From Gracilinema caldarium DSM 7334 (GTDB taxonomy: Bacteria > Spirochaetota > Spirochaetia > Treponematales > Breznakiellaceae), in NCBI RefSeq assembly GCF_000219725.1, contig NC_015732.1, positions 930,001-994,000 on the forward strand: a DNA stretch of 64,000 bases. The letters run 5' to 3'. Position 1 is the stretch's first letter. Each line of letters starts with the position of its first letter. Position numbers and translations under genes: made by a program. Shown here piece after piece: positions 59,256 to 64,000 of this stretch. The notes below the pieces were generated by a model, which was not told the origin of the DNA, searched no databases, and worked only from the letters and a program-made list of their open reading frames with translations.

Positions 59256-59377
59256 CCGCCCCCACCGCCCCGGTGCTCCTTGTTGGTGCCTACCCCCTCT
59301 CATGAATTATTCCGAGCTATGAGCACAGGTACTTTAATAAAACCTGCCACCGGTCTGATGAAAAAATAAAAATGAAC

Positions 59378-59406
59378 TTGACATATTTCAAAAATAGCTT
59401 TTATCC
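59378..59406 (+). promoter_or_regulatory. Promoter upstream of the frameshifted lipoprotein and the A+T-rich cluster
   Basis: TTGACA (59378-59383) and TTATCC (59401-59406) are 17 bases apart. This is the only good promoter seen before the cluster beginning at 59754. Confidence 0.5.
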
Positions 59407-59420
59407 TAAAAGCACAAAAC

Positions 59421-59442
59421 CAAAAGCTGCAGCTTGGTTTTT
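59421..59442 (+). terminator. Terminator or attenuator before the lipoprotein gene
   Basis: CCAAAAGC-TGCA-GCTTGG followed by TTTTTT. The stem is 6 bp with a bulge of two A. It lies between the promoter at 59378 and the ATG at 59481, so it could attenuate the downstream genes. Confidence 0.5.
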
Positions 59443-59480
59443 TAAAATAATAGGCCTAAAAAAGTAACGGAGGTTATTGT

Positions 59481-59737
59481 ATGTACAAAGGGTTCTTTAA
59501 AACTCTGAAAAGGGTAATCGTTCTGTCTGTTTTCTTCCTTCCTTCTTTTCTTCCTTCCTTTTAGGAGCCTGTGCCTTTCCATTCAGTGGAGGCAGCCAGG
59601 GTGTAACACTTAATCCGGTATCTACCGAATTTCGAGAAATTGCGCAGAAAGGATATATGGGTGGTAGCGTAGTGTATAATCCTGAAGCTCCAGAAGCCGG
59701 GCATTTATATGCTTTTATGTATAAATCAACAAGGTAG
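59481..59737 (+). pseudogene. Short lipoprotein gene frameshifted within a TTCC repeat tract (phase-off or broken)
   Basis: ATG at 59481 with GGAGG upstream opens a signal-peptide-like frame (MYKGFFKTLKRVIVLSVFFLPS) that stops at 59562. In another frame the sequence at once continues as LLGACAFPFSGGSQGVTLNPV, with lipobox LLGAC, and runs 59 codons to a TAG at 59735-59737. The two frames meet in a pyrimidine tract (59530-59561) made of TTCC-like units and a 16-base tandem duplication. Adding one 4-base unit would join them. No alternative start exists in the lipoprotein frame. The mature protein (about 56 residues, ending YKSTR) is not recognised. Confidence 0.65.
59530..59561. repeat. Tetranucleotide/16-mer pyrimidine repeat in the lipoprotein signal sequence
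   Basis: TTTTCTTCCTTCCTTC (59530-59545) is followed by TTTTCTTCCTTCCTTT (59546-59561). Within each, TTCC is repeated. Slippage by 4 bases changes the reading frame of the lipoprotein. Confidence 0.85.
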
Positions 59738-59753
59738 ATGGAGAAAAAACTCA

Positions 59754-60482
59754 ATGATTAGTGGGAAATGCCTTGTGTGCGGTGCTAAACTAGAACATCG
59801 TGACGAAAGCATAATTGTCATGTGCTCTAAATGTGGAAAAAAAGAGAGGACATGTATTGTTTGTGAAAAAGAGCATTATCTTTGTAATGCTTGTGCAACT
59901 GAAACGGTGATGGCTAAAATCTTTCAAAAGATACCCGAGATTGATTGCCAAAATCCCTGTGATATAGGAGAAAAGCTTTTAATTGAATGTGGGTATGCTG
60001 GTAATTCTCCGCATTTTGTTGTTGCAATAGCTTTCTTGTTGGCTTTAAAGAATTTAAGTTTTGTAACGCTCGAAGATGTTTTTGAAGGAATGATGCGAGC
60101 TTCTCAAATTCCTGGTGGGTGGTGTGGATATTACGGCTCATGTGGAGCTGCAGTCGGATTGGGTGTTGCTGTTAGTATATTAACAAAAGCTACACCTATG
60201 ACGGATAAGTCGCGTAGTATGGCAAATGAAGCTACAGCTGAAGGGCTAAAAATTGTGGCATCACAAGGTGGACCAAGGTGCTGTATAGGTTCTGTGCGTG
60301 GTGTTTTAGAAGCTGGAGTAAAGTATATAAAGGAAGCGCTCGGAATTGATTTTCCTACCCGAAGAATAGAAATAAAAAAATGCTGGGCAAGTAGGCTACA
60401 ACCGGATTGTAAAAAGGAACGATGTCTTTTTTGGGAAAAAAACATAAGTAAAAATGGGAGGTGCGAAAATGGAGAATCTTAG
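59754..60482 (+). CDS. Cysteine-rich DUF5714/C_GCAxxG-type protein
   Basis: 242 residues from the ATG at 59754. An upstream in-frame start at 59709 lies within the lipoprotein gene. The N-terminus is a zinc-ribbon-like array: CLVC, CSKC, CIVC and CNAC within the first 60 residues. The core GGWCGYYGSCGAAVGLGVAVS matches the C_GCAxxG pattern, then GGPRCCIGSV and KKCWASRLQPDCKKERC near the end. These Cys suggest metal or metalloid binding or redox chemistry; no reaction is established. First gene of the A+T-rich cluster, overlapping the next gene by 14 nt. Confidence 0.8.
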   Translation: MISGKCLVCGAKLEHRDESIIVMCSKCGKKERTCIVCEKEHYLCNACATETVMAKIFQKIPEIDCQNPCDIGEKLLIECGYAGNSPHFVVAIAFLLALKNLSFVTLEDVFEGMMRASQIPGGWCGYYGSCGAAVGLGVAVSILTKATPMTDKSRSMANEATAEGLKIVASQGGPRCCIGSVRGVLEAGVKYIKEALGIDFPTRRIEIKKCWASRLQPDCKKERCLFWEKNISKNGRCENGES

Positions 60483-61575
60483 AGAAATGTTACAGAAGAT
60501 GATCAAAAGTGCGTTAAAACATAACAGTAATTTAGACTTGGCAAAAATGTTAGGAAGTGAAGAACATTTTTATTATTTTCCTTTAGAAAGCTTTCAAGGT
60601 AAAGAAAAAGTTTTGTTAATGGGATGCAATGGTATTAAATTTTTGAAAGATATTGTTTTAACGGCAGGGAAAGCGGGTAAAGTTATAATTGTGACAGAAA
60701 ATAAGGATGAAAAAGAAAAAGTAGAAGAGGATTTAGAAGCAACTCAAAAGGAAATTGGTTTTTATAATTCTGAACTGGTTTTAGTAAGTTCATATGATCT
60801 GCGGGTTAACCCTGAATATATTGTAAAAGAATTATCGATGTTTCCTGTGCGTACTTTTAGCGATTATATAAATTTACAAAAAAAGATAGAAAATCAAAAA
60901 GAAGCTGAGCCTTTCTTGAACAATGAGAGTGTAGATATTGTTTATATTGATTTGCTAAATCGTTATAAGAAAGAATATGTCAATTTGTTGCTTAGCGAAG
61001 CATTTCGAATACTTAAAAGAAAGGGAATTCTTTTGATTAAGGTTTATTTGAGTGATGAACCACTAAAAAGTGCTGACTTAAATGTGTGTAACAATATGAA
61101 AATGCATTATATTCCTTTAGAAAATGAGATAGAAGAGGTTTTAGCATTACATGGATATATAGGAATGCGTTATCAATGGCGTGCAGAAATTCCGCAATTT
61201 ATCCATAATAATATAGAGATAAGACCTTTTCTAATAGAGGCTTACAAAGGAGAGCAAGGACCTTGTTTTGAAAAGGGGCATGCAGTTTTTTATATTGGTC
61301 CTTGGAAAGAAGTGGTTGATGATGATGGGCATAGATTATATCGTGGTCAACGTATGGCTGTGTGTGAGAAAACATATAAAAATCTCACAAGTTGTAGTTA
61401 TGAGGGGCAAATTATTGGTATTCCACCTTACAATGAAATTTCAGATGGAGATGTTCGACTTTTCGATTGCGATATTTCTGAAAAACGAAATCCTAAAGTG
61501 ACAAAGGGGCTTAGACCACTTTTTGAAGGGGGGAATATATCTAAAAATGATATTAATGAGAGTAGTTGTTGTTAA
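60469..61575 (+). CDS. SAM-dependent methyltransferase homologue, ArsM-like, with SSCC tail
   Basis: 368 residues from the ATG at 60469, with GGGAGGTG upstream. Rossmann motif I is diverged (KVLLMGCNGIKFLKD near residue 48). The DIVYIDLLNRYKKEYVNLLLSEAFRILKRKGILLIKV stretch corresponds to the methyltransferase core. The C-terminal region GHAVFYIGPWKEVVDDDGHRLYRGQRMAVCEKTYKNL resembles the C-terminal domain seen in bacterial ArsM-type arsenite methyltransferases. The protein ends DINESSCC. Catalytic competence is uncertain because motif I lacks the usual GxGxG. Arsenic as substrate is inference, supported by the ArsP-like permease downstream. Confidence 0.65.
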   Translation: MENLREMLQKMIKSALKHNSNLDLAKMLGSEEHFYYFPLESFQGKEKVLLMGCNGIKFLKDIVLTAGKAGKVIIVTENKDEKEKVEEDLEATQKEIGFYNSELVLVSSYDLRVNPEYIVKELSMFPVRTFSDYINLQKKIENQKEAEPFLNNESVDIVYIDLLNRYKKEYVNLLLSEAFRILKRKGILLIKVYLSDEPLKSADLNVCNNMKMHYIPLENEIEEVLALHGYIGMRYQWRAEIPQFIHNNIEIRPFLIEAYKGEQGPCFEKGHAVFYIGPWKEVVDDDGHRLYRGQRMAVCEKTYKNLTSCSYEGQIIGIPPYNEISDGDVRLFDCDISEKRNPKVTKGLRPLFEGGNISKNDINESSCC

Positions 61576-61595
61576 CATGATTAAGGAAGTTAAGT

Positions 61596-62852
61596 ATGCA
61601 AGCTGATAATTATGTATTGTTTGTTTCTATTAGTAAATATCTAGATTATTATATCAACCTTGCTCATCGATTAGGGTACAAAGTTATTCTTTTAAGCAGA
61701 AAAATAGATATGGATGCGTTGATAATGGTAGATATTCCTGTAGAAATCGAATTAAACGATAAAGAATTGGTAATGCAAAAAGTCAAAGAATTGCGAAACA
61801 AGTTCTATATTTGTGCTGCATTTACAACAAATGAGTATCGTGTTCCTTTAGCAAAGGAGATCGCTGTGTTGCTTGGTTTGGCACACCCTGCCGATATTGA
61901 TGCTGTTTTGCAATGCCGCAATAAGAAACTTACAAGGAACAAGTTGGCAGAAAAAGAAATTTCACCTGTTAGGTACCAAGTTGTGACTTGTAGTTGTAGT
62001 GCAAAAAAATTCGCGTCGGAAATTGGCTATCCTGTTGTTGTAAAGCCTTCTAATGATTCTGGAAGTCGTAACGTGTTTTGTTGCCGAAATGAAATTGAAC
62101 TACTAGAGGCATTTAATATTATTACCAATGCTAAAGTAAATCAAGTAAATGAAGAACTTGATACAGATATTCTGGTAGAAGAATTTTTAGTTGGTCCAGA
62201 ATATAGCGTGGAAGCTGGAACTGATGATGAAAAAACGGTTATATATTCTATTACCGCTAAGATTACAACTCCTCTTCCTTATGCTGTAGAGATTGGTCAT
62301 TTAAGTCCTGCAAAATTAGATCCGCTTATAAAGCAACAAATGGAGGATTTGGTTATGCAGGCCATAGATGCTCTAGGTCTTAGAAGATGTGTAACACATA
62401 CGGAAATCAAACTTACGCCTAAGGGGCCAAGGATTGTGGAAGTTAATGCTCGCCCGGGAGGTGATGAAATACCACGACTTGTACAGCTTACTACAGGTTA
62501 CGATATTCGTCAGATTGCACTTTACTTGGCTTTAGGATATAGTCTTGAGGAAATGCCTCGTGATTCCGTTGTGGCAAGATCAGCAGCTATTCGGTTTTTT
62601 GTTAGTGATAGGGATGGTGAAGTTATGATATCTTATCCTAACAATATAAAAGATAATAATAACGTTGTGGAGTTGGAGTTTTATGTTCGTTCTGGTGACT
62701 GTGTTGCGAAAACGGTCGATAATTTCTCTCGTTTGGGTCATATTATTTGTTATGACCCAGAGGGTGAGATGGTAGATCAGCTTATTGATGCTTTAGTTGA
62801 ACAAGTGCAAATTACTATAAATCCAAAAGAAAGAGGAGGATGTATATGTTAA
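61596..62852 (+). CDS. ATP-grasp ligase with C-terminal Cys motif
   Basis: 418 residues. A pre-ATP-grasp domain (about 1-105) leads into an ATP-grasp fold: GYPVVVKPSNDSGSRNVF near residue 143, VEEFLVGPEYSVEAG near 193, and metal/ATP ligands HTEIKLTPKGPRIVEVNARPGGDEIP near 267-292. Such enzymes join a carboxylate to an amine or thiol with ATP. No pathway partner from purine or peptide biosynthesis is nearby. It ends ERGGCIC, matching the Cys tails of its neighbours. AAGGAAG precedes the ATG. Overlaps the next gene by 7 nt. Confidence 0.85.
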   Translation: MQADNYVLFVSISKYLDYYINLAHRLGYKVILLSRKIDMDALIMVDIPVEIELNDKELVMQKVKELRNKFYICAAFTTNEYRVPLAKEIAVLLGLAHPADIDAVLQCRNKKLTRNKLAEKEISPVRYQVVTCSCSAKKFASEIGYPVVVKPSNDSGSRNVFCCRNEIELLEAFNIITNAKVNQVNEELDTDILVEEFLVGPEYSVEAGTDDEKTVIYSITAKITTPLPYAVEIGHLSPAKLDPLIKQQMEDLVMQAIDALGLRRCVTHTEIKLTPKGPRIVEVNARPGGDEIPRLVQLTTGYDIRQIALYLALGYSLEEMPRDSVVARSAAIRFFVSDRDGEVMISYPNNIKDNNNVVELEFYVRSGDCVAKTVDNFSRLGHIICYDPEGEMVDQLIDALVEQVQITINPKERGGCIC

Positions 62853-63160
62853 ATTTTATCTCACAATTGGAAAAAAGTTTTGCTGAATTTATTTCGGAAG
62901 CCTATCAAAACCAAACTCTTTGTAATAAAAGTAAGGTGATAGTGCTTTTGACATTTGCTCTTTCAGAAGAAAATCCAGAACTTGTAAAAGAGGGTCTTAT
63001 AAAAGCAAAACAAGAAGGATTGACCAATGAAGAGATTGCACAAATTGAAGCAATAGTAATTGCATTGAAAGGCCGAAAAATTGTACATCTTCTGACAACA
63101 GGTTCTACAAAGCCTGGAAGTAACGAAGGGACGAACAAAAGTTCATGTTGCTGTCAATAA
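62846..63160 (+). CDS. Small carboxymuconolactone-decarboxylase-like protein with SSCCCQ tail
   Basis: 104 residues from the ATG at 62846, with GAGGAGG 5-7 nt upstream. An ATG two codons earlier overlaps that site. The helical core (SKVIVLLTFALSEENPELVKEGLIKAKQEGLTNEEIAQIEAIVIAL) follows the AhpD/CMD-fold pattern in which GLTNEEI marks the conserved GAT-x-EEI turn. The catalytic CxxC of AhpD is absent. A Gly/Ser/Thr-rich linker leads to the C-terminus NKSSCCCQ. The cysteines may bind a metalloid. Function unknown. Confidence 0.65.
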   Translation: MLNFISQLEKSFAEFISEAYQNQTLCNKSKVIVLLTFALSEENPELVKEGLIKAKQEGLTNEEIAQIEAIVIALKGRKIVHLLTTGSTKPGSNEGTNKSSCCCQ

Positions 63161-63227
63161 TGAGGAATAGAGTTACCAGACTACTTTTTAATCAAGATAT
63201 TGAAGTGAATGTTGCATATAAATTATA

Positions 63228-63265
63228 GGGTACTTCTAGAAATTTCAGTTTTAAGAGGTTAACTT
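63228..63265. repeat. Dispersed imperfect palindrome, copy D (degenerate)
   Basis: GGGTACTTCTAGAAATTTC and AGTTTTAAGAGGTTAACTT form partly complementary arms resembling copy E. Confidence 0.4.
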
Positions 63266-63298
63266 AGTTTATATGCGAAATCCTGATAAGATTTGCTT

Positions 63299-63338
63299 AG
63301 GCGCTTCTAAAAATTTAACAGAGTTTTTAGAGGCGCTT
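63299..63338. repeat. Dispersed imperfect palindrome, copy E
   Basis: GCGCTTCTAAAAA (63301-63313) pairs with TTTTTAGAGGCGC (63324-63336) with one wobble, extendable by two pairs, followed by TTTAT. This is the best-formed copy. It could end the transcript of the preceding Cys-tail genes. The 63161-63477 spacer holds copies D and E, a possible promoter, and no gene. Confidence 0.65.
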
Positions 63339-63345
63339 TATACTG

Positions 63346-63374
63346 TTGTGCAACGTTAAATGAAAAAATAAAAT
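63346..63374 (+). promoter_or_regulatory. Possible promoter of the permease gene
   Basis: TTGTGC (63346-63351) and TAAAAT (63369-63374) are 17 bases apart, just after repeat copy E. Confidence 0.4.
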
Positions 63375-63477
63375 ATTGAGATTATGTTATTTTCATAAAA
63401 GGCATTTAAATGATGAATGTATTAAGGGATATGTTACTGATTTTTTTAAGTTAATGTTTAAGAAGAGAGGGAAAAAT

Positions 63478-64000
63478 ATGAGTGTAGCTGCTATTTTTTA
63501 TGAACTACTCAGAATAGGGCAGTTTATTTGGGATTCATTTATGCACATCTGGTGGCTACTCTTAATTACCATTCCTTTGGCGGTGTGGGTAAATATCAGC
63601 GACTTTGGAAAGTATGTAAAAAAACTAACAAATTACAACGTTTTTTTGTCAATATTTTTTGGTACTGTTATTGGAGCATTTAGCCCATTTTGCTCATGTA
63701 GTGTTATACCCGTAATTACTTCTTTTTTAATAACAGGTGCTCCACTTGCCGCTGTAATGTCTTTCTGGATTGCTTCGCCATCAATGGATCCAGAAATCTT
63801 TTTTCTTAGTGTTGCATCACTTGGTTGGCCGCTTGCTTTTGCAAGATTAGTTGCTACTTTCTTCTTAAGTCTTGGTGGAGGATTAATAACACACTTTTTT
63901 ATTTCAAAAGGATGGATAGGTAACGACTATCTCAAGCTCAAAAGTAAGCCGCAGCATACTGTCTATTCTTTACGAAATCTAAAAGAAAGGATAAAATCGA
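63478..64000 (+). CDS. arsP: ArsP/YraQ-type (DUF318) permease, N-terminal part (cut by window edge)
   Basis: 174 codons are visible from the ATG at 63478, which has AGAGAGGG upstream, and the frame is open to the right edge. Four TM helices are visible (about 22-38, 52-68, 78-97, 110-130). The permease signature GAFSPFCSCSVIPVITSFLITGAPL contains the Cys-Ser-Cys pair implicated in trivalent organoarsenical binding by ArsP, followed by FWIASPSMDPEIF. ArsP exports methylated and aromatic As(III) compounds. Position after the ArsM-like gene supports that role. Other YraQ-family substrates remain possible. Confidence 0.75.
   Translation, partial: MSVAAIFYELLRIGQFIWDSFMHIWWLLLITIPLAVWVNISDFGKYVKKLTNYNVFLSIFFGTVIGAFSPFCSCSVIPVITSFLITGAPLAAVMSFWIASPSMDPEIFFLSVASLGWPLAFARLVATFFLSLGGGLITHFFISKGWIGNDYLKLKSKPQHTVYSLRNLKERIKS

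Follow-up and report, generated by a model that had tools for sequence, protein, structure and literature searches.

Background

The opa genes of Neisseria carry CTCTT pentamers in the part of the gene that codes for the leader peptide (PMC3745409). The gonococcal virG gene carries a tetranucleotide tract, (AAGC)3, which stayed the same on passage of the cultures and was considered too short (PMC5320596), and one survey placed its threshold for tetranucleotides at 5 or more units (PMC6321876). Here we describe a TTCC repeat that interrupts the start of a lipoprotein reading frame in Gracilinema caldarium DSM 7334. The window, that is the whole stretch of DNA analysed, comprises 64,000 nucleotides (positions 930001-994000 of a contig of 3,239,340 bp), and coordinates refer to it unless a contig is named. 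A first-pass annotation of this DNA had read the locus as a lipoprotein gene in the OFF phase of a contingency locus. Our analysis points to a different identity: the feature is likely a 5' stub, duplicated and dead, from a lipoprotein gene, left behind by the route of decay proposed in the Discussion.

Results

Behind a good ribosome site (GGAGG), the ATG at 59481 opens a signal-peptide reading frame of 27 codons on the forward strand (59481-59564), which translates as MYKGFFKTLKRVIVLSVFFLPSFLPSF and is closed by the TAG at 59562-59564. An imperfect TTCC tract of about seven TTCC-like units (59530-59562, forward strand) contains an exact 16-bp tandem of 31 bp (59530-59560). The lipobox (LLGAC) and the start of the mature lipoprotein lie on the same strand in another frame (59556-59737), which reads LLGACAFPF and stays open until the TAG at 59735-59737; homology in this frame ends at 59712, and from there to the stop the sequence is that of the adjoining gene cluster. 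The basic n-region of the signal peptide, its hydrophobic core and the lipobox cysteine are thus all there but are split over two frames, whereas the orthologue of the related genome G015 encodes them in a single one. Translation and repeat analysis therefore bear out the first-pass annotation in so far as it placed signal peptide and lipobox in different frames on either side of a TTCC-rich tandem of 16-mers, and the locus does have the in-frame tandem repeat near the start, with a unit that is not a multiple of three, that characterises contingency loci. Its frame arithmetic was also right: the distance from the ATG to TTTTAGGA is 78 here as compared to 70 in the in-frame G015 orthologue, and the ATG-to-lipobox distance of the latter is shorter by exactly 8 bp, or two units. 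The 'continuous lipoprotein' said to be restored by such a change, however, would be a stub of merely 82-86 residues, the last few of which come from cluster DNA.

The repetitive character of the tract exceeds what base composition yields. Its period-4 score is 21/27 as compared to a best score of 17-18 in 40 simulated windows matched in dinucleotide composition, and a period-16 run of at least 28 bases arose in only one of the 40 (28 bases) against 31 bases observed. Genome-wide, with up to two mismatches allowed, the top TTCC-like sites are this tract and its duplicate, and among the best-scoring sites of the pattern search no second TTCC-coded lipoprotein was prominent besides these two. 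The longest pure TTCC-type run measures 12 bases in the window copy, 14 in the duplicate and 22 in the G015 orthologue, so that both copies, with only two to three pure units at the locus, fall short of five uninterrupted tetranucleotide units, which the orthologue attains. Too short and too interrupted for contingency rates, the tract would be poorly mutable.

The duplicate defines what the feature is. A 352-bp 5' fragment (59361-59712, forward strand) is a direct repeat of contig positions 994878-995229, 5.5 kb downstream and outside the window, and spans the promoter region, leader, ribosome site, signal peptide, tract and first approximately 50 mature codons. The copies are identical at 350 of the 352 positions. 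One mismatch, at 59549, falls within the tract; at the other, 59615, the window copy has the G015 base and the downstream (parent) copy is changed. Tract length is equal in both, and the parent is consequently out of frame as well. What had been taken for a free-standing lipoprotein gene is hence the truncated copy of a gene that is longer and lies just past the window. A near-identical partial copy with broken ends, next to a parent truncated beside an insertion sequence, is what a duplicated pseudogene fragment looks like. The flanks of both copies are essentially single-copy in the genome. We found no origin or cause of the duplication; a GGTGGCAGGTTT motif shared near both copies was considered as the sign of a mobile element and dropped, since 14 of 200 shuffles had equal matches. 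An IS91-family transposase is encoded at L003:15886-17127, with some 4.5 kb between it and the broken parent gene upstream; elements of this family can copy adjoining DNA, which might bear on the duplication.

In the parent copy the open frame continues, free of stops, for 443 mature residues and there comes to its end, while orthologues in the family reach about 710-760 residues. A complete gene therefore follows the tract in neither place, the window holding a stub and the parent lacking residues past 443. A search of the genome for the missing 3' third found nothing, a result that is weak alone as the query had no demonstrated match there. An N-terminally incomplete IS256-type transposase adjoins the break. 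Between the parent and its G015 orthologue pN is 0.19 and pS is 0.74, the latter near saturation, and nonsynonymous differences per site are thus far below synonymous ones. Unique amino acid changes in the comparison of the parent with G015 stand at 24:21, 23:17 and 18:16, with a clear excess in neither lineage. This, together with the lack of stops, suggests that loss of function is probably recent, or that the gene was probably expressed until lately. A truncated lipoprotein could also still be functional, which, like the open frame and the even changes, counts against a dead remnant. An FG-GAP match fell below the cut-off, and sequence searches of Rfam and PDB gave no match. Downstream of the broken parent gene lies a fragment that a weak Pfam score assigns to the omptin family (L003:12494-12742); the intact orthologue of G015 has an omptin-like gene (L007:290-1246) directly upstream. 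Just downstream, at L003:13000-15000, GC content is 56-69% near the low-GC cluster, which gives the region a mosaic appearance.

The DNA between the direct repeats, from 59713 to contig position 994877 (5165 bp), has a GC content of 29-40% as compared to 45.6% for the genome. It is taken up by an AT-rich cluster of metalloid type, which extends on the forward strand from 59713 to 64000 and for a further 877 bp past the window. On that strand it encodes a DUF5714 protein (59754-60482), an ArsM-like methyltransferase (60463-61575), an ATP-grasp ligase with an L-amino-acid-ligase C-terminal domain (61596-62852), a small AhpD-like protein (62840-63160) and, from 63472, a permease of the ArsP/SO_0444 type. 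The ATP-grasp protein has family matches of only 24-27% identity and no close relative among the family genomes searched; its best plasmid matches (42% identical) are from Priestia. The cluster has apparently been acquired, and possibly specifies a pathway of organo-metalloid biosynthesis or detoxification. Several proteins of this cluster (which covers 59754-64000 and L003:8472-9749) carry a cysteine pair at the C-terminus or close to it. Homologous recombination between the 352-bp repeats should, we predict, be able to remove the cluster.

A promoter-like sequence, TTGACA-18-TATCCT, is located at 59378-59407 on the forward strand, where it aligns with TTGACA-18-TACTCT of the G015 orthologue. 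It is the best promoter-like site preceding the cluster, lies within the copied fragment and is likely the cluster promoter, because that fragment ends 41 bp before the first cluster start codon (59754) and the site is matched in G015. The earlier suggestion that the lipoprotein start shares a promoter with the cluster is plausible on these grounds.

Orthologues of the parent gene in G015, G116, G040 and G079 are 30-68% identical, full length and in frame, and have a lipobox and a conserved core. The closest of them, from G015 (68%), carries an in-frame (TTCC)5 at this position; in G040, G116 and G079 the site has no TTCC tract, which leaves G015 as the only one of the orthologues compared to have it. 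No same-genus relative holds the locus. Whole-unit differences in tract length amount to 8 bp between species and to zero between the two copies in one genome. At least 4.5 pure TTCC units occur in three of 200 family genomes (G015, G017 and G022), and two of the three sites (G015 and G017) code for a lipoprotein signal peptide, the G022 site having no lipoprotein reading. In G017 two contigs, L059 (the end of G017:C93) and L061 (the start of G017:C120), both terminate within a TTCC tract; if joined over it, they would encode MSKKNKTDDRV-(LPSF repeats)-LLFVTLSCSLG, a signal peptide with a TTCC-coded core that is in frame with 6, 9 or 12 units. This makes the G017 tract a candidate for a long or variable one. 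The joined lipoprotein is without a Pfam match, and no likeness to the lipoprotein of the window was noted. Signal peptides are rich in Phe, Leu and Ser, the residues that TTCC happens to encode, and the coincidence of such tracts with signal peptides is therefore in part one of composition.

Discussion

Could the tract then work as a switch? The proposal that it is an active contingency locus in its OFF phase, at which slipped-strand mispairing reversibly switches a surface lipoprotein, can point to the position of the tract in the signal peptide, to a difference of whole units from an in-frame orthologue that has five pure ones, to a mature frame open and free of stops, and to the unrelated G017 lipoprotein with its own TTCC tract. 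We nevertheless consider it unlikely to hold, as there is no complete gene behind the window copy, the parent is truncated at its 3' end, the pure units are few and the copies have kept equal tract lengths despite two base differences. If substitution is assumed to proceed at 1e-10 to 1e-9 per base and generation, the chance that neither length had changed would be no more than 0.3% at a slippage rate of at least 1e-6. The equal lengths could instead be due to gene conversion, or to a duplication that took place very recently, and either would weaken this argument about slippage rate. Stub and truncated parent together make it unlikely that a surface lipoprotein is actively phase-variable in DSM 7334. 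The contingency reading of the first-pass annotation thus stands as regards a frame break at a tetranucleotide and a whole-unit change relative to an orthologue, and fails on the short pure runs, the equal copies and the fragmentary gene; the signs of a pseudogene that it had itself set beforehand as speaking against a switch are present in the form of a 5' fragment whose parent, too, has its frame broken and lacks the 3' third.

It is very improbable that the break arose as an error of sequencing or assembly, either within the tract or across the duplicated block. Mistakes do classically fall at short repeats and at near-identical copies, but the finishing of the DSM 7334 genome drew on 283x Illumina and 27x 454 coverage, with polishing, and its stated error is less than 1 in 100,000 (PMC3739177). 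Moreover, the copies are 5.5 kb apart and the sequencing included a 12-kb paired library, and the same tract length is found in both, between different flanks and in spite of the two base differences, one of which is inside the tract. Base-calling error, which had been named as a possible cause, is unlikely with 454 plus 283x Illumina data. Similarly, we think it quite improbable that the stub is a functional leader, in which either a hairpin or the translation of the 27 signal-peptide codons would set expression of the metalloid cluster. Apart from the promoter-like site, the case for this is the leader hairpin CCAAAAGCTGCAGCTTGG (59415-59443), a stem pair of which is changed from A-T to G-C in the leader of the G015 orthologue. 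The hairpin, however, is located ahead of both copies and of the orthologue and has therefore not arisen for the cluster; its folding energy is no better than that of shuffles (z about 0), and it has no Rfam match.

We thus favour decay of a duplicated gene end. An ancestral, lineage-specific gene of about 700 codons, which is intact in relatives, would have had TTCC repeats coding for the hydrophobic core of its signal peptide. In the lineage of Gracilinema caldarium the tract exceeds that of the in-frame orthologue by two units (8 bp), which puts the gene out of frame. The cluster would have been placed between two copies of the 352-bp 5' end; the direct repeats are consistent with a single cross-over of a circular molecule bearing the 352-bp piece, the route we infer, and would also fit a duplication with insertion afterwards. 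The parent copy would in addition have lost its 3' third beside the IS256-type element, and the window copy would today most likely serve only as promoter and leader for the cluster. Duplication, truncation and homology can be read directly from the DNA, as can the equal tract lengths and the in-frame orthologue, whereas the order of these events, the use as a promoter and the low mutability are inferred. The main lesson of the locus is a caution: behind a frame break at a repeat there may be nothing more than decay.

In the relatives, a TTCC-coded signal peptide may be phase-variable, now or formerly. It is conceivable, although we hold it to be doubtful, that some Breznakiellaceae switch unrelated lipoprotein genes in the manner of opa by means of a TTCC-coded core, with G015 and G017 as candidates and the window locus as a fossil or slow member. 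Should the tracts of G015 and G017 prove variable in cultured cells, phase-variable surface lipoproteins would reach beyond the well-studied pathogens to free-living or gut-symbiotic spirochaetes.

How, then, does the locus relate to the known systems? As in Neisseria opa, a repeat rich in pyrimidines encodes a portion of a surface protein's signal peptide, and the frame shifts when a unit is gained or lost. Different from opa, where many pure units switch intact genes at a rate of approximately 1e-3 per generation, the present locus combines two to three pure TTCC units with a stub and a truncated parent and belongs to a free-living thermophilic spirochaete. Gonococcal virG shares with it a coding tetranucleotide of two or three units, (AAGC)2-3, which varies between strains and not within a strain; yet protein, unit and organism are others, and virG is listed as possibly phase-variable whereas the window gene is truncated. 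The lipoprotein family of G015, G116, G040 and G079 is itself uncharacterised, and its members, unlike the window copy, are in frame and full length.
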